DNA of 64,000 bases from a bacterium (GTDB lineage: Bacteria; Hinthialibacterota; Hinthialibacteria; OLB16). The stretch spans positions 62,001-126,000 of the forward strand of contig JAJVIK010000013.1 in NCBI GenBank assembly GCA_022072055.1, in the 5' to 3' direction. Below are positions 18,246-25,195 of this stretch, piece after piece (the first letter of the stretch is position 1; each line of letters opens with the position of its first letter). The notes below the pieces were generated by a model. The model searched no databases and was not told where the DNA came from. It worked only from the letters and a program-made list of their open reading frames with translations. The position numbers and the translations under genes are program-made.

Positions 18246-18836
18246 GTGGACGAACGCACCCTTTTCCCCACCACCCCAGCCGCCACCCCCATCGGCCCCA
18301 TCCGTTGTCTCGGCCAAACCTTCCCCGACGACAACGCTCGGCGGGAGCACTTCCTCGGCGTGTTGCGTGAGAAGCTCAAGGACCCCGAGTTACGCAAGAT
18401 CGAGGGCTTCCCCATCGGGTCGGATGAGGACATCCTCGCGACGTCCGATCCGCCGTACTACACCGCCTGCCCGAACCCTTTTCTTGCGGATCTGGTCCGA
18501 GAGTGGAGCAAATCTCCCTCTCCCTCGATGGGAGAAGGCAGAGGTGAGGGGGGAGGGCAGCCTTACTCCCGTAATCCGCTGGCCATTGATGTCTCCGAAG
18601 GGAAGACCGATCCGCTTTACAAGGCCCACTCCTACCACACCAAGGTTCCGCACAAGGCGATTGCCCCGGCGATTCTCCATTACACCGATCCCGGCGACAT
18701 TGTTCTGGACGGGTTCTGCGGATCGGGGATGACCGGGGTGGCGGCTCAGGTGTGCGCCCACCCCAATCCTGAACTCAAGCAATCGCTGGAACAGGCGCGC
18801 GCGGCGGCTGGGCTGCCCCCCCGTTTTTTCGCTTGA
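18246..18836 (+). pseudogene. Truncated site-specific DNA methylase (beta-class) with embedded repeat
   Basis: Residues 1-95 and 115-185 match the start of a large DNA methylase family: motif IV DPPYYTACPNPFLADLV near 76 and motif I LDGFCGSGMTGVAAQ near 155. Motif IV before motif I is the beta-type order. The frame stops after 196 residues, while relatives I recall are several hundred residues long and continue with the target-recognition and remaining catalytic parts. In addition, about 15 codons near 18514-18558 encode SPSPSMGEGRGEGGG, the translation of an intergenic-type palindrome. The 3' end coincides with the promoter of the next gene. It is most likely a decayed fragment. Confidence 0.75.
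18514..18558. repeat. Palindromic repeat inserted in-frame in a methylase remnant
   Basis: The core tctccc (18521-18526) pairs with gggaga (18532-18537) around a 5-nt loop, with C/T-rich and G/A-rich flanks extending the stem imperfectly. The segment is a multiple of three and leaves the methylase frame open across it. The composition (runs of ctccct and gaggggg) resembles the 955-1045 repeat and dispersed palindromes known from many genomes. Confidence 0.65.
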
Positions 18837-18862
18837 CGACCCCTTTCCCTGGGCCTCATAAT
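18833..18862 (+). promoter_or_regulatory. Predicted sigma-70-type promoter of the giant secreted protein
   Basis: A -35 element TTGACG (18833-18838) and a -10 element CATAAT (18857-18862) are separated by 18 bp. Transcription would start near 18869, about 66 nt before the ATG at 18935. The -35 overlaps the stop region of the methylase remnant. The -10 sits in a perfect inverted repeat (18851-18869). Confidence 0.6.
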
Positions 18863-18869
18863 GAGGCCC
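18851..18869. promoter_or_regulatory. Candidate operator: perfect 9-bp inverted repeat over the -10 element
   Basis: gggcctcat (18851-18859), one central A, atgaggccc (18861-18869). The arms are perfectly complementary and the centre falls on the predicted -10 CATAAT. The position is ideal for a repressor that blocks RNA polymerase. No regulator gene is adjacent. Confidence 0.55.
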
Positions 18870-18934
18870 GCAAGAGGGGAAACCCCTTTCGTCACGCTCT
18901 TTCTTTCAGAACTCACCTCGGGAGGCGTAAACGC

Positions 18935-21900
18935 ATGTTTTTCACCGGGATGCCTGTGATTTCCTCGGACCTTGGGCTGCGGGGCGGCCACACAAACCAA
19001 GCGTCGGGATGGAGTCGCCGGAGGTGGTTTGCAGCCGCTCTCGCCCTGGCCCTGGCGCTCGCCGGAATTCCCGCCACCCATGCCGCGGACACCCCCGCTC
19101 CCCAAGCAGCGCCCAAGACTGAGGCGTGCTGCGAGTCGGGCGCCTGCTCGGCGGTCTGCGATCCCGGATGCCTGGCCAAGTCGGGGGAGTCGGTCCTGGT
19201 CTCCGCCGGAAGCAGCGCGCAAATGCCCCTCCCCGGCCTCTCCGCCGATGAATACTACGGGGTCACGATCTGGTTCCCCGAACTGCGCGGGCTAGCCGAG
19301 GCCGATTCGGTCACGGTCAAGGTCTCGGATGCCTCCGGCGAGGTGGTCTCCAAGGCGCTCCATGGCGGCGACCCGGACCTGTATGTCACCCTCAAACCCC
19401 GCAAGAACGGCGATGGGGTGATCGACTTCTCCGCCGGAATGGCCCTGGCCGGGAAGATTTACCAACTCCGGGCCTCCTGCGCGAAGATGAACCTCGATTC
19501 CGACTCCGGGGTTCTGGTTCAAGCCCACCCCAACTCGGACTGGCGTCACGCCCAAGCGATCGAGCTCGGCAAGCCGGTGTTCGCCACGAACGACGAGCGT
19601 CCCTACATCCCCGCCCTTGGTGGCCCCAAAGAGACCGTCCGCGACCTGTTCGCGGGGGCGCAGTGGTTCACCTTCACTCACGCCGGTCCCAAGCCGGTCC
19701 TGGTCCATTTCCTGATCGACATGCTTGACCGGGATGTCCCGGTGGATGTGGCTATCTTCAAACAGGAAGGGGACAAGCTCGTTCATTATTGGGAAGGCGA
19801 GCCGCGCCATATCCCGGAGCAGTCGACCCCGTTTCACGGTCTCTACAAGTTCGCCCCGCGCGTGATCCGTCCCGGGACCTATTTCGTGCGGACCATGGGG
19901 AACCATCCGGGGTACATCCTCCGCAGCGAAGTGTACCCCCTGCCGCCGTACTCCGATCCGCGCCTGGCGATCCGCGCGGGAATGGATTTCCTGGTGAAGA
20001 AAGGGGATAGCTGGCACGCCAACACCCCCCGTCGCGGGGGGGTGATCCTGCGCGCCAGCAACCCACTGGGCGAAACCCGCCAGTGCATTGCCTGCCACCC
20101 GACCCATTTCACCACGCGTGGGGAACTGATTGCCATCGAGAACGGCTACTCGGTCAAGGCGCGCCCCTCCTTCCAGTTCCTGGTGGAGCGCCTCTACAAC
20201 AACCCGCGCCCGATCTATGGCGACCCGGAGGCCGCCTGGGCGCGGATGATCAGCGCTCCGGGGAGCGTGTTCAGCCGCTTGGCTTACATGGTCAACACCT
20301 TCGAGAAGACCATCAGCCATGAGCAGCGGGTCGGGGCCATCGAACCGATTGGGAACTACCTCCAGATGTTCTGGAAAGGGGTCGAAGAGCCCTACACCGA
20401 CAGCAACGGCAACCTCCCCCGTGTGAGCGGGGTCCAGTACGCCATGCACAGCGCGCTGGTTTTCGAGGAGCTCCATAAGCGCACGGGCAACGAGAATTAC
20501 CTCGCGCTCCGCAAGCAGATGGAAGAGGGGATCATCCAGGTGGAGCCGATCGACCTGATCGACCTGTGTTGGAAGGCGGTCGCGCTGGCCACCTTCGACA
20601 AGGAGAAGCACTCGGAAGCCATCGGGAAGATGGTGGAGGAGATCTTTTCGCACCAAAAGGAGGATGGGACCTGGTCGATGGTTTTCGACACGGAGGTGAC
20701 CCATCACGACTACCACACCGGGACGAACAAGTTGGTGCAGGCCCCCAAGGGGCCCGATGGCAAGGCGCTTTACTCCGAGTTCCAAACCTTCCACGCCATC
20801 TACGCCTTGGCCAAGGCAGGGGTTTCCGCCGAGGACCCGCGTCTCGCCAAGTCCGTGCAGTGGTGCCTCTCCAGGCAATGGCCGCATGGGGGCTGGCAGG
20901 GCAACGCCGACTACAAGAACTTCGACACCCCCTTCCGCGACACCCAGTTCGCGGTGATGGCGCTTTCCGAGCTCTACAAGGGGCCGGGAGCGGATGGCTG
21001 GGAATCCGGGTTCCCCGCCCCACCCAAGGATTTTGACCTGAATGACACCGGGGCGGCCCTTGCGGCGCTGGATCAATACTGGAACGACCCCGGCGCGGAG
21101 GTTCGCCCACGAATCCGCAAGGCCCTAGGGCATCAACAACCGCTGGTTCGCTTCGCGGCCGCCTCGGCGGTCGGACGAATCGCCGACCCGGAGGCGGTCT
21201 CCGACCTGATCAAGCTGCTCGGCGACCCGAGCAAGATGGTCCAGAGGGGCGCGGCTTGGGCGCTGCGTCAGATCGCCACCCGCAGGCTGGTCGGAAACGA
21301 GGAAATCCTGGCCGGACTCAAGTCCACGGATGACCGCACGCGCTGGGGCGCGGCGCGTGTGTTCAACCAGCATTTCCGCTTCCTGGTTGAGAACCAGGCC
21401 ACCCAAGCTGCCTTGGTTGCTCAACTGACCGAGGATCCGGTTCCAAGTATCCGGATGAGCGCGGCGCAGGCCCTTTGGCAGTGGTGGTACTGGGTCAAGA
21501 GCGAGGACTCCAAGGCGGCCATCGAGGATGCTTTTGTCGCCCAAATGGCCAAGGCGGAGCACCCCTGGGTGCGGCGGAACCTGATCGAGGGCTTCCACAA
21601 CATGCAGGACGAAAACGAAGCCTATTTCTACAACAGCTGGACTCGCCAAGTCTATGACGAAACCGATAAGAAGAAGTTAACGGACGGCCATCATCGAGTT
21701 GTTAAGCAGCAGGCCGAGCGAATTGGGAAGATTCTTTCCGAGGGTAACGACCTCCAACGAGATGCCGTTTTGAGAAGCTACTATACCTTCCATTTGCGCG
21801 AGCCGGGTGCGGATCCCGCCCTTGTCGCGGATGTCCCCCTCCCCGAAACCTTCCTTCATCCCGAGCCGACCGACCGAGGTCAGAACACTTGGATCGACGG

Positions 21901-24900
21901 TTATCGGAAGTATGGCGCCTACGATCCGTTGATCATGGGAACCGGCGCCATGGCGGGCATCGGGAATGACCATGCACCCGCGCTCTATTATGAGGAGTCG
22001 GGCCCCGCGGTGGCGAATGGGTTGCTCGCGGTCCTGAACAACGGCTCCCCGATGCTTCAGGGCGCGGTGCTCAAGGCGCTGCGCCATTCGGTGGGAGTCC
22101 CCGCCGATGAGGCCTTCTCGGTCAAACTGATTTCCCTCGCTCTCGGTAACACCCCGGCCAAGGATCCGGCTGAGATTCGAGCGATGGTTCGAGAGCTGCT
22201 CCCGAGTCGAATCACGGATGGCCCGGAGACGCGCAAGGCGCTCGCCGAGGCGATTCGCGCGGGAGCGGATCCCGGACTTGAACTCGCCGAGGCGGTCCTT
22301 GTCGATTCCCGCAACTCGGGGATCGCGGATTCCGCCGAGGTGGCCGCCGCCCTCAAGGAGGGATTCCTTTCCAACCCCAAGGAGGACGCGAAGCTTGCCT
22401 ATTTCCTGGGGTCAATCCTGAATGCCCGCTCGCTTCACTCGGACCCCAAGGTCGCCGAGAGATTTGCTGAGATCGCGGTGTCTTCGCCGGCAGCCTTGCA
22501 AGAAAAGGCGATTCGAGTCCTCCTTCAGGCCCCCACGTTGCTTGCGGCTGGAGATGCGCGAGAAATCCTGGATGAAGGGCTTGCCAAGGCGGATTCCTCG
22601 ACGTTGGTCACGCTACTGAAAGCCTCGGCCTCGCTCGATCCCAAGAAGATCGAGGATGGCGCGGGTGTTTCACTCGCGCTTGGGCTTGTGACCAACGGGC
22701 TGCGTCACGCCAACCCGGCCGTGCGCGGGCAAGCGGTCGAGAGTGTGCGGACCCTCTCGAAGATCCAGAACAACCCCGCCGTGCTCGCCCTGGTGCGGGA
22801 ATTGGGCGCGGATACCGACCCGATGGTTCAACAATCCGCCACCGCTCTGCTCGCCTCCTTCGATTCGAGCGTGACCCTGGCGAAACAGGACATCACTCAA
22901 CTTCTGGACTACCGTTTTTTTGTCGAGAAGGTCCATCCGATCCTGGAGCGTGAAGGGGATGACAAGTCGGCCTGTATCAAGTGCCATTCGAACCACACGG
23001 TCTTCCGCCTGAATCGCCCTGGCCCGGATGGGAAGATCACCGAGGAGCAGCTCCGTCAGAACTATCTCGCCGCCCTCAAGGTGGTCGATCCGGCCTCTCC
23101 CGAGGCAAGCCTGATCCTGATCAAGCCGACCAAGCCCTTCGAGGGCATCGAGCTTCCAGGGTCCTACCTCAAGACCCACGGTGGAAATGTGCGCTGGGCG
23201 GCAAAGAAGGAATCCGAGGACTACCAAACCATCCTCCGTTGGATCCGTGGGGCGCGGGTTGAATCCTCGGAGCCGGTGTTGCTTGCCCTCGCCAAACCCG
23301 ATTCCCAGTCAACGCCCGCAGTTCAAACGACCGCCACAACGGGCGCGGCTCCATCCACGATCGAAGCGGTCGCGGCGGAACTGGTGAAAGGCCTTCCAAC
23401 CTGCCCGGTGATGGAAGGAGAACCGATTGATTTCACCATCCATGTGGCCACCGACGAGGGTCCTGTCTTCTTCTGCTGTGCTGGGTGCTGCAAGAAGTAT
23501 TCGGAGAATCCGGCCAAGTACGCTGAAAAGGTGAAAGCCCAGCGCGCGCAGCTGGCGGCGCTGCCCAAGGTGCAGGTGGCCTGCCCGGTCTCGAAGAAGC
23601 CGGTCGACCCGAATGTGACCTTTGATTGGAACGGGACCAAGGTGGCCTTCTGTTGCGGGGGATGTTGCGGCGAATTTGCCAAGGACCCGACCAAGTTCGC
23701 CTCGGCGCTGGCCAACAGTTACACCTGGCAGGTCTGCTGCCCGCTCACCGGCAAGCCGATTGACCCGAAGATCTTCACCGCGCTGGATGAGGACACGAAT
23801 GTGTACTTCTGTTGCGGCGGGTGTTGCGGCGAGTTCGCCAAGGACCCGGCCAAATTCGCCGACAAACTCCTCGCGCTCGGCCTGAAACTCCCCAAGGAGA
23901 AAGCCAAGGCCGAGAGCGCGGTGGCCGAGGCCCCGCCCGCCCCCGCCGAACCGGCCAAGCAAGAGCCGAAGACTGAGGCTCCCGCCGAGGCCCCAAAGAG
24001 CGAGCCTGAGACCGCCGTGGTCAAGGTGACCTGCCCGGTGAACAAGGGCGCGGCGGTGGACTACGCGATCCACTGCGAGACCGACAACGGCCCGGTCTTC
24101 TTCTGCTGCAAGGGGTGCAAGAAAGCCTTCGCGGAGACCCCGGAGAAGTTCGCCGCGGCGGTCGAGGAGCAGCGCAAGGCGCTGGCGGCGCTGCCCAAGG
24201 TGCAGGTGGCCTGCCCGGTCTCGAAGAAGCCGGTCGACCCGAATGTGACCTTCGATTGGAATGGGACCAAGGTGGCCTTCTGTTGCGGGGGATGTTGCGG
24301 CGAATTTGCCAAGGACCCGACCAAGTTCGCCTCGGCGCTGGCCAACAGTTACACCTGGCAGGTCTGCTGCCCGCTCACCGGCAAGCCGATTGACCCGAAG
24401 ATTTTCACCGCGCTGGATGAGGACACCAATGTCTACTTCTGTTGCGGCGGGTGTTGCGGCGAGTTCGCCAAGGACCCGGCCAAGTTCGCCGACAAGCTCC
24501 TCGCGCTCGGCCTGAAACTCCCCAAGGAGAAAGCCAGGGCCGAGAGCGCGGTGGCCGAGGCCCCGCCCGCCCCCGCCGAACCGGCCAAAGAGGAGCCGAA
24601 GGCTGAGGCTCCCGCCGAGGCCCCAAAGAGCGAGCCTGAGGCCACCATGGTCAAGGTGACCTGCCCGGTGAACAAGGGCGCGGCGGTGGACTACGCGATC
24701 CACTGCGAGACCGACAACGGCCCGGTTTTCTTCTGCTGCAAGGGGTGCAAGAAAGCCTTCGCGGAGAACCCCGGCAAATTCGTTGACTCAGTCTCGGAGC
24801 AGCGGCAACAACTCGGCGGCTTGGAGAAAGTCCAAGTCCTGTGCCCGGTCTCCCTGAAGCCCATCGACCCGGCGGTCACTTTCGAGGAGGATGGGCAACG

Positions 24901-25195
24901 TCTCTCGTTCTGCTGTGGCGGGTGTCTGGAGAAATACCGAAAATCGCCGGAGGATTTTGCTTCGGGACTGGCAAACAGTTTCACCTACCAGACCCTCTGC
25001 CCTGTTTCCGGCAAACCGATCAGCAGCGCGGCCTTCGTTCCCATTAACGAAAACACCCGGCTCTATTTCTGCTGCGAGAACTGCAAGAAGGCCTTCTCCG
25101 AGGACCCGGCGAAGTTTTCGGACAAGGTCAAGGGGCTTGGAATCAAATTGGAGGCGGATAAGGTAGTGGGCGGCCAGAAAGTCGCCGCGAATTGA
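18935..25195 (+). CDS. Giant secreted multidomain protein: heme-c motifs, toroid/HEAT region and nine TRASH/YHS-like domains
   Basis: 2086 residues from the ATG at 18935, which has GGAGG nine bases upstream. Residues ~1-50 form a signal peptide with an RRR-W-F basic stretch and an ALALALALAG core. A Cys-rich stretch (CCESGACSAVCDPGC) follows, then beta-rich domains. Heme-c type motif CIACH is at 384-388. An alpha/alpha toroid-like part (about 500-700, VQWCLSRQWPHGGWQGNADY) precedes HEAT repeats (about 725-1310, LVRFAAASAVGRIADPEAVSDL). A second CIKCH is at 1347-1351, after which residues 1490-2070 hold nine Cys-rich domains, each with CPV/CPL and FCCxGC or FCCxNC motifs. The domains resemble TRASH/YHS metal-binding modules. 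An envelope role in metal handling or electron transfer is inferred; I know no close precedent. Confidence 0.8.
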   Translation: MFFTGMPVISSDLGLRGGHTNQASGWSRRRWFAAALALALALAGIPATHAADTPAPQAAPKTEACCESGACSAVCDPGCLAKSGESVLVSAGSSAQMPLPGLSADEYYGVTIWFPELRGLAEADSVTVKVSDASGEVVSKALHGGDPDLYVTLKPRKNGDGVIDFSAGMALAGKIYQLRASCAKMNLDSDSGVLVQAHPNSDWRHAQAIELGKPVFATNDERPYIPALGGPKETVRDLFAGAQWFTFTHAGPKPVLVHFLIDMLDRDVPVDVAIFKQEGDKLVHYWEGEPRHIPEQSTPFHGLYKFAPRVIRPGTYFVRTMGNHPGYILRSEVYPLPPYSDPRLAIRAGMDFLVKKGDSWHANTPRRGGVILRASNPLGETRQCIACHPTHFTTRGELIAIENGYSVKARPSFQFLVERLYNNPRPIYGDPEAAWARMISAPGSVFSRLAYMVNTFEKTISHEQRVGAIEPIGNYLQMFWKGVEEPYTDSNGNLPRVSGVQYAMHSALVFEELHKRTGNENYLALRKQMEEGIIQVEPIDLIDLCWKAVALATFDKEKHSEAIGKMVEEIFSHQKEDGTWSMVFDTEVTHHDYHTGTNKLVQAPKGPDGKALYSEFQTFHAIYALAKAGVSAEDPRLAKSVQWCLSRQWPHGGWQGNADYKNFDTPFRDTQFAVMALSELYKGPGADGWESGFPAPPKDFDLNDTGAALAALDQYWNDPGAEVRPRIRKALGHQQPLVRFAAASAVGRIADPEAVSDLIKLLGDPSKMVQRGAAWALRQIATRRLVGNEEILAGLKSTDDRTRWGAARVFNQHFRFLVENQATQAALVAQLTEDPVPSIRMSAAQALWQWWYWVKSEDSKAAIEDAFVAQMAKAEHPWVRRNLIEGFHNMQDENEAYFYNSWTRQVYDETDKKKLTDGHHRVVKQQAERIGKILSEGNDLQRDAVLRSYYTFHLREPGADPALVADVPLPETFLHPEPTDRGQNTWIDGYRKYGAYDPLIMGTGAMAGIGNDHAPALYYEESGPAVANGLLAVLNNGSPMLQGAVLKALRHSVGVPADEAFSVKLISLALGNTPAKDPAEIRAMVRELLPSRITDGPETRKALAEAIRAGADPGLELAEAVLVDSRNSGIADSAEVAAALKEGFLSNPKEDAKLAYFLGSILNARSLHSDPKVAERFAEIAVSSPAALQEKAIRVLLQAPTLLAAGDAREILDEGLAKADSSTLVTLLKASASLDPKKIEDGAGVSLALGLVTNGLRHANPAVRGQAVESVRTLSKIQNNPAVLALVRELGADTDPMVQQSATALLASFDSSVTLAKQDITQLLDYRFFVEKVHPILEREGDDKSACIKCHSNHTVFRLNRPGPDGKITEEQLRQNYLAALKVVDPASPEASLILIKPTKPFEGIELPGSYLKTHGGNVRWAAKKESEDYQTILRWIRGARVESSEPVLLALAKPDSQSTPAVQTTATTGAAPSTIEAVAAELVKGLPTCPVMEGEPIDFTIHVATDEGPVFFCCAGCCKKYSENPAKYAEKVKAQRAQLAALPKVQVACPVSKKPVDPNVTFDWNGTKVAFCCGGCCGEFAKDPTKFASALANSYTWQVCCPLTGKPIDPKIFTALDEDTNVYFCCGGCCGEFAKDPAKFADKLLALGLKLPKEKAKAESAVAEAPPAPAEPAKQEPKTEAPAEAPKSEPETAVVKVTCPVNKGAAVDYAIHCETDNGPVFFCCKGCKKAFAETPEKFAAAVEEQRKALAALPKVQVACPVSKKPVDPNVTFDWNGTKVAFCCGGCCGEFAKDPTKFASALANSYTWQVCCPLTGKPIDPKIFTALDEDTNVYFCCGGCCGEFAKDPAKFADKLLALGLKLPKEKARAESAVAEAPPAPAEPAKEEPKAEAPAEAPKSEPEATMVKVTCPVNKGAAVDYAIHCETDNGPVFFCCKGCKKAFAENPGKFVDSVSEQRQQLGGLEKVQVLCPVSLKPIDPAVTFEEDGQRLSFCCGGCLEKYRKSPEDFASGLANSFTYQTLCPVSGKPISSAAFVPINENTRLYFCCENCKKAFSEDPAKFSDKVKGLGIKLEADKVVGGQKVAAN
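23551..24137 (+). repeat. Internal DNA repeat, copy 1 (TRASH domains 2-4)
   Basis: This segment and 24181-24767 are nearly identical at the DNA level with a constant offset of 630 bp (210 codons). It encodes TRASH domains 2 and 3, the Ala/Pro/Glu linker and the start of domain 4. Only scattered base differences separate the copies (for example aatgtgtacttc against aatgtctacttc), pointing to recent duplication or gene conversion. Confidence 0.9.
24181..24767 (+). repeat. Internal DNA repeat, copy 2 (TRASH domains 5-7)
   Basis: Second copy of the 23551-24137 segment, in frame. The first cysteines of domains 1, 4 and 7 lie at codons starting 23402, 24032 and 24662, an exact 630-bp period, so the protein is built from three triplets of domains. 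Confidence 0.9.

Follow-up and report, generated by a model that had tools for sequence, protein, structure and literature searches.

How does one bacterial protein come to combine c-type heme motifs, a toroid, HEAT repeats and nine cysteine-rich domains, and what might such a chain do? The question is raised by a gene in a 64,000-nucleotide (nt) stretch of contig JAJVIK010000013.1 (positions 62,001 to 126,000; assembly GCA_022072055.1, phylum Hinthialibacterota), here called the window, in whose own positions all unprefixed coordinates are given. An initial annotation, made from the letters alone, had regarded the protein as a single device of a kind not previously described. The architecture holds, and a literature search found no paper that names it; the single device, however, is a fusion of two parts that have relatives elsewhere, an exported diheme core and a C-terminal array of YHS domains.

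A core and an array joined in one reading frame

18935–25195, plus strand: whole gene, an exported diheme/toroid/HEAT/nine-YHS fusion protein, 2086 amino acids from ATG 18935, stop at 25195
23258–23392, plus strand: Ser/Thr/Ala/Pro linker and core-YHS fusion site, where type-A relatives end

That the window gene is a fusion is shown by two observations: none of the 18 core relatives inspected carries a YHS tail, and a separate exported triplet protein occurs in the sister genus. This latter protein (G002:C65) has its own signal peptide and at least two YHS triplets, in which the domains show the same 60/52-residue spacing as in the window; the triplets are 51% and 46% identical to those of the window, and the distance between triplets is 13 residues shorter. 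Domains at the same triplet position tend to cluster across genera, types a and b more than type c, in a small tree of modest support, and the YHS triplet probably predates the divergence of the two genera. Exported YHS triplets are, moreover, a recurrent module. Unnamed exported proteins with two or three YHS domains are found in diverse bacteria, and three of these (L144, L147 and L151) resemble the window protein in having a signal peptide and three YHS domains ~55–63 residues apart; the group differs from it in possessing one triplet, in lacking the heme core and, in two cases, in terminating in a His-rich tail. Thus, one lineage has joined a rare diheme toroid-HEAT core to an array that elsewhere is exported as a protein of its own. 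The fusion hints that core and array act jointly, and provides a first functional lead for the unnamed core family that can be tested.

It could be argued that so unusual a gene is a frameshift or assembly artefact, the former a possibility that the initial annotation had itself raised. The open frame (18833–25195, plus strand; 2120 amino acids counted from the first TTG) is, however, uninterrupted over its whole length, and the GC content at third codon positions is alike in core and tail (0.79 versus 0.83). The copies of the 630-nt repeat described below differ in 17 of ~195 codons, which is not expected of an assembly duplicate, and an artefact is ruled out on these grounds. The ATG at 18935, the start chosen earlier, is preferred to the first TTG and is preceded by GGGAGG. 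No second start or signal lies ahead of the YHS part, the linker containing neither Met nor a signal sequence. Cysteines number 45 in the last 601 residues versus 12 in the first 1488.

Nine YHS domains and the source of their exact period

23402–23551, plus strand: YHS domain 1 (triplet 1, type a), CPV...FCCxGC; PF04945
23582–23731, plus strand: YHS domain 2 (triplet 1, type b); PF04945, motif, cross-genus comparison
23738–23887, plus strand: YHS domain 3 (triplet 1, type c); PF04945, motif, cross-genus comparison
23888–24025, plus strand: Pro/Glu/Ala-rich linker 1; offset-630 self-comparison, codon changes
24032–24181, plus strand: YHS domain 4 (triplet 2, type a); PF04945, motif, cross-genus comparison
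24212–24361, plus strand: YHS domain 5 (triplet 2, type b), with the same amino-acid sequence as domain 2; PF04945, motif, cross-genus comparison
24368–24517, plus strand: YHS domain 6 (triplet 2, type c), with the same amino-acid sequence as domain 3; PF04945, motif, cross-genus comparison
24518–24655, plus strand: Pro/Glu/Ala-rich linker 2; offset-630 self-comparison, codon changes
24662–24811, plus strand: YHS domain 7 (triplet 3, type a); PF04945, motif, cross-genus comparison
24842–24991, plus strand: YHS domain 8 (triplet 3, type b); PF04945, motif, cross-genus comparison
24998–25147, plus strand: YHS domain 9 (triplet 3, type c); PF04945, motif, cross-genus comparison
23545–24130, plus strand: block recently duplicated in tandem at a distance of 630 nt, the copy (24175–24760) being ~97% identical

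The nine TRASH/YHS-like domains with CPV/CPL and FCCxGC motifs that had been read from the sequence are confirmed by the Pfam YHS profile (PF04945), which matches nine stretches (E 4.7e-23); the cut-off of 30.3 bits is passed by the whole protein (81.4 bits), single domains scoring below it. The motifs C-P and F-C-C-x-x-C, which supply the four metal-ligand positions of YHS (Cys/Asp, Cys, Cys, Cys), are present in 9/9 domains. The first cysteines lie at 23402, 23582 and 23738 in the first triplet, at 24032, 24212 and 24368 in the second, and at 24662, 24842 and 24998 in the third. The exact 630-nt period reported earlier for domains 1, 4 and 7 is therefore real, and is true of all three triplet positions.

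Such regularity might suggest a structural constraint. When the array was compared with itself at an offset of 630, however, identity reached ~97% only across ~23545–24130, and was ~50–65% on either side. The pattern points to old triplets in which a single unequal crossover has recently taken place between neighbours, at homologous positions. Since a crossover of this type generates an exact period automatically, the period is largely its by-product and requires no special structural constraint, although the 60/52-residue spacing within triplets is kept in the sister genus. Changes accumulated since the duplication were synonymous at 8/8 sites in the YHS domains, whereas 6/7 in the linker alter the amino acid (Fisher p 0.0014, with two further amino-acid changes at the block edge, where the limit of the crossover is uncertain, excluded). 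Purifying selection thus acts on the YHS domains, which have retained only synonymous changes, and far less on the linkers, which changed freely.

A possible metal-binding array in the envelope

YHS domains (PF04945) and the related TRASH domains occur in copper P-type ATPases, phenol/toluene hydroxylases and an adenylyl cyclase of Mycobacterium phlei, and share the CP...FCCxxC pattern with the window protein. In the examples described so far there is a single copy and the protein is cytosolic, whereas the window protein is predicted to be exported and has nine copies in triplets, with FCC pairs. In the M. phlei cyclase the YHS domain mediates specific activation by Cu2+, and the TRASH domain of L24e, which is related to YHS, binds Cd2+ through four cysteines (PMC4626032). 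This knowledge of the family, together with the context of exported YHS proteins elsewhere (see below), leads us to propose, at about even confidence, that the protein is an envelope metal-binding array, for Cu(I) or a Zn-like metal, tethered to a diheme scaffold. In each YHS domain the four cysteines of C-P and F-C-C-x-x-C would bind a single thiophilic ion, with Cu(I) and Zn(II) the most plausible candidates; Pro/Glu spacers would keep the triplets apart; and the array as a whole, with room for ~nine ions at most, would act as a buffer or donor of metal in the envelope. The hemes may serve to hold the thiols or the bound metal in reduced form. Metal binding, the identity of the metal, the stoichiometry, the function of the hemes and any coupling of heme to metal are inferred. 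With CusF/CopZ-type copper chaperones the array has the proposed role alone in common, no relation of sequence or fold having been found.

The adjacent cysteine pairs (FCC, CCxxCC) offer thiols beyond the four-ligand set, and the cysteines might instead form an array for thiol-disulfide redox chemistry, supplied from the hemes or from a DsbD-type pathway, that stores no metal. Consistent with this view, in G004 the gene for an exported YHS-pair protein (L164:5528-6052) adjoins a DsbD/thioredoxin fusion gene. This adjacency was seen once, however, and the conserved cysteines correspond to the ligands used by metal-binding TRASH domains (PMC4626032); we therefore consider a redox array distinctly unlikely.

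The diheme core and a rival role for the array

19958–20980, plus strand: alpha/alpha toroid of squalene-hopene-cyclase type without the cyclase DxDD; Foldseek and profile
20084–20098, plus strand: heme-c motif 1, CIACH, amino acids 418–422; CXXCH invariant in 17/17 aligned sequences
21053–22867, plus strand: HEAT-repeat region; PF13646 (E 3.3e-20), PF02985 (E 2.6e-16) and an Adaptin_N match to amino acid 1344
22910–23257, plus strand: second heme module, CIKCH at 22973–22987 (amino acid 1381), His1449 (23177–23179) being the candidate distal ligand

The core (amino acids 117–1488) has full-length relatives, among the matches listed, in Acidobacteriota, Armatimonadota and Planctomycetota, and also in its own genome (a 1562-residue paralog) and the sister genus. 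Its frequency was 4/396 sampled genomes in Acidobacteriota, 2/392 in Planctomycetota, 7/291 in Armatimonadota and 2/14 in its own phylum, rates that are inexact as sampling was centred on genomes in which the family had already been found. Spread over at least four phyla, these exported diheme toroid-HEAT proteins form a rare family without a name. Neither Pfam nor NCBIfam has a family name for the core. No member was found on a plasmid.

The two CXXCH motifs, the toroid-like part and the HEAT array claimed previously are all recovered. The heme motifs start at nt 20084 and nt 22973. In the 13/13 sequences that retain the second heme module its CXXCH and His1449 are invariant, whereas for heme 1 no second His or Met is conserved throughout the 17 aligned sequences. 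The second module matched no Pfam model above cut-off, and the protein matched no profile of a named cytochrome family in Pfam or NCBIfam. Nevertheless CXXCH motifs, an export signal and heme-attachment machinery, the attributes of a c-type cytochrome, are all present, the last in the form of a c-heme assembly protein (PF01578, E 4.4e-34) encoded in the window's genome, and the hemes are thus predicted to be covalently attached. The toroid is seen in the AlphaFold model, in Foldseek matches to 8paj_B (TMt 0.56) and 1sqc, and in a sequence-profile match to squalene-hopene cyclase (E 6e-20); Pfam gives a sub-threshold match to the same family at amino acids 652–690. Four stretches match the Pfam HEAT_2 model.

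Squalene-hopene cyclases (PF13243, TIGR01507) have QxxxGGW-like repeats of the toroid in common with the core, which differs from them in having a heme-c site before the toroid and HEAT repeats after it, and in lacking DxDD. This motif is absent from the window core and 14/16 relatives, with two isolated occurrences among the 17 sequences, and a squalene cyclase enzyme is ruled out. HEAT-repeat c-type cytochromes of Planctomycetes-type bacteria presumably share CXXCH, a later HGG(G) motif and HEAT repeats with the core, which differs in matching no named cytochrome model.

At the position occupied by YHS domains in the window protein, the own-genome paralog (L138:7971-12659, C4) ends in a lectin-like tail of F5/8 type C, and L027, which is cut by a contig end, is similar. 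The C-terminus therefore looks like an exchangeable docking module, and the YHS array may be a structural or protein-binding tether, zinc-finger-like with structural Zn, the working part being the diheme toroid as an envelope enzyme or electron carrier. A heme 1 without an invariant second His or Met would suit a reactive rather than a purely electron-carrying heme, and metal genes are lacking near the window gene. However, nine near-identical modules exceed the need of a tether, and exported YHS proteins of like type exist on their own, with copper or Cus-type genes adjoining two of them. A tether is thus possible, if rather unlikely. The hemes could also take part in metal capture itself, in a single-chain metal-reducing trap in which electrons travel through both hemes to Cu(II) or another oxidised metal in the envelope and the adjoining nine-domain array catches the product, although we view this as quite improbable.

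An eight-CXXCH multiheme cytochrome (L138:15839-17764) is encoded ~3 kb from the own-genome paralog. Some Armatimonadota core proteins end before the second heme module, and two of these short cores (L131 and L132) have a separate two-heme gene close by. An Armatimonadaceae relative (L028:7854-11172) consists of two overlapping frames and is missing the heme-1 region, through either natural deletion or assembly error.

Metal genes beside exported YHS proteins and in the window

Two unrelated bacteria provide examples. In G1198 an exported three-YHS protein is encoded behind an outer-membrane efflux gene, and a CusB-type adaptor and the beginning of a CusA-type pump are found no more than 7 kb away. 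The three-YHS protein of G1245 shares its island with genes for a CopA-type ATPase, a CsoR-type repressor and a cupredoxin. The exported YHS proteins of G003, G005, G010, G1241 and G1389 have no obvious metal genes nearby, as judged by eye from protein starts. The link between exported YHS proteins and metal genes is thus suggestive and not general. A three-YHS protein (L163:5941-7623), fused to a YtkA-like domain, occurs in a copper-resistance island. In G002:C626, a copper-type P-ATPase with one YHS and two heavy-metal-binding domains (L139:1995-4487) is encoded on the same strand as a core gene and directly downstream of it.

The proposal of heavy-metal sequestration made in the initial annotation accordingly has indirect support from these relatives. 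Electron transfer, which the annotation had also put forward, is conjectural, although both heme motifs are conserved. Several findings weigh against the metal-binding array we favour. The core-YHS fusion is known from one genome only. Pfam identifies no metal transport or regulator genes among the window's neighbours, in agreement with the earlier statement that no copper or mercury operon is nearby. The associations elsewhere come from few genomes picked from matches, with no background rate. The only heavy-metal P-ATPase match in the window's own genome (L165:1219-3183) has SPC and HEGST motifs. The cysteines of the array could be disulfides in an oxidising periplasm. Structural modelling, which the initial annotation had proposed as a check of YHS/TRASH folding, gave a mixed picture: domain 1 reaches pLDDT 72–93 with a strand-strand-helix-helix order, whereas the other two domains of the triplet are at 36–60. 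The triplet model is of low confidence (mean pLDDT 55), and the fold consequently rests mainly on the sequence profile. No structural match of the triplet passed E 0.001, the nearest solved folds being phenol/toluene hydroxylases, with their YHS part, and a TRASH domain, both weak (E >= 0.7). Among PDB sequences, phmmer found no relative of the array, and other searches gave weak phenol hydroxylase matches only.

The SPC and HEGST motifs of the L165 P-ATPase are, we take it, typical of P1B-4 (Co/Zn/Fe) pumps and not of copper pumps. Since its motifs are of this type and no metal gene is near the window gene, metals other than Cu, Zn among them, must be taken seriously as the ion bound by the array. 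No CPC-type copper ATPase was detected in the window's genome (96.6% complete), which would also be consistent with a protein that scavenges metal for cuproenzymes or a heme-copper oxidase rather than for detoxification, a role for which the envelope location and modular array are likewise suitable. No cuproenzyme gene lies near the window gene, however, and the YHS relatives that stand beside metal genes adjoin efflux or resistance genes, making delivery a very unlikely purpose.

Export signal, N-terminal domains and neighbouring genes

18935–19084, plus strand: probable signal peptide, hydrophobic core at amino acids 65–82, with predicted cleavage near THA|AD
19181–19939, plus strand: two beta-sandwich domains; AlphaFold strands, model residues 2–253

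The sole strongly hydrophobic segment of the protein, FAAALALALALAGIPAT (amino acids 65–82), is preceded by an Arg-rich stretch and is consistent with a signal peptide, as originally annotated; export would proceed by this route. The AlphaFold model of amino acids 117–905 (pLDDT 72, pTM 0.76) places two beta-sandwiches before the alpha/alpha toroid, and the nearest PDB folds to the former are beta-sandwich ectodomains.

Rfam has no match in the window. By Pfam, the neighbouring genes encode a helicase, a methylase, an aminotransferase, a branched-chain/sugar-type permease, a signal peptidase and TPR proteins. Just upstream of the fusion gene, window positions 18246–18836 match the C-terminal part only (160–200 of 221) of an N6/N4 DNA methylase profile, and are probably a gene fragment.

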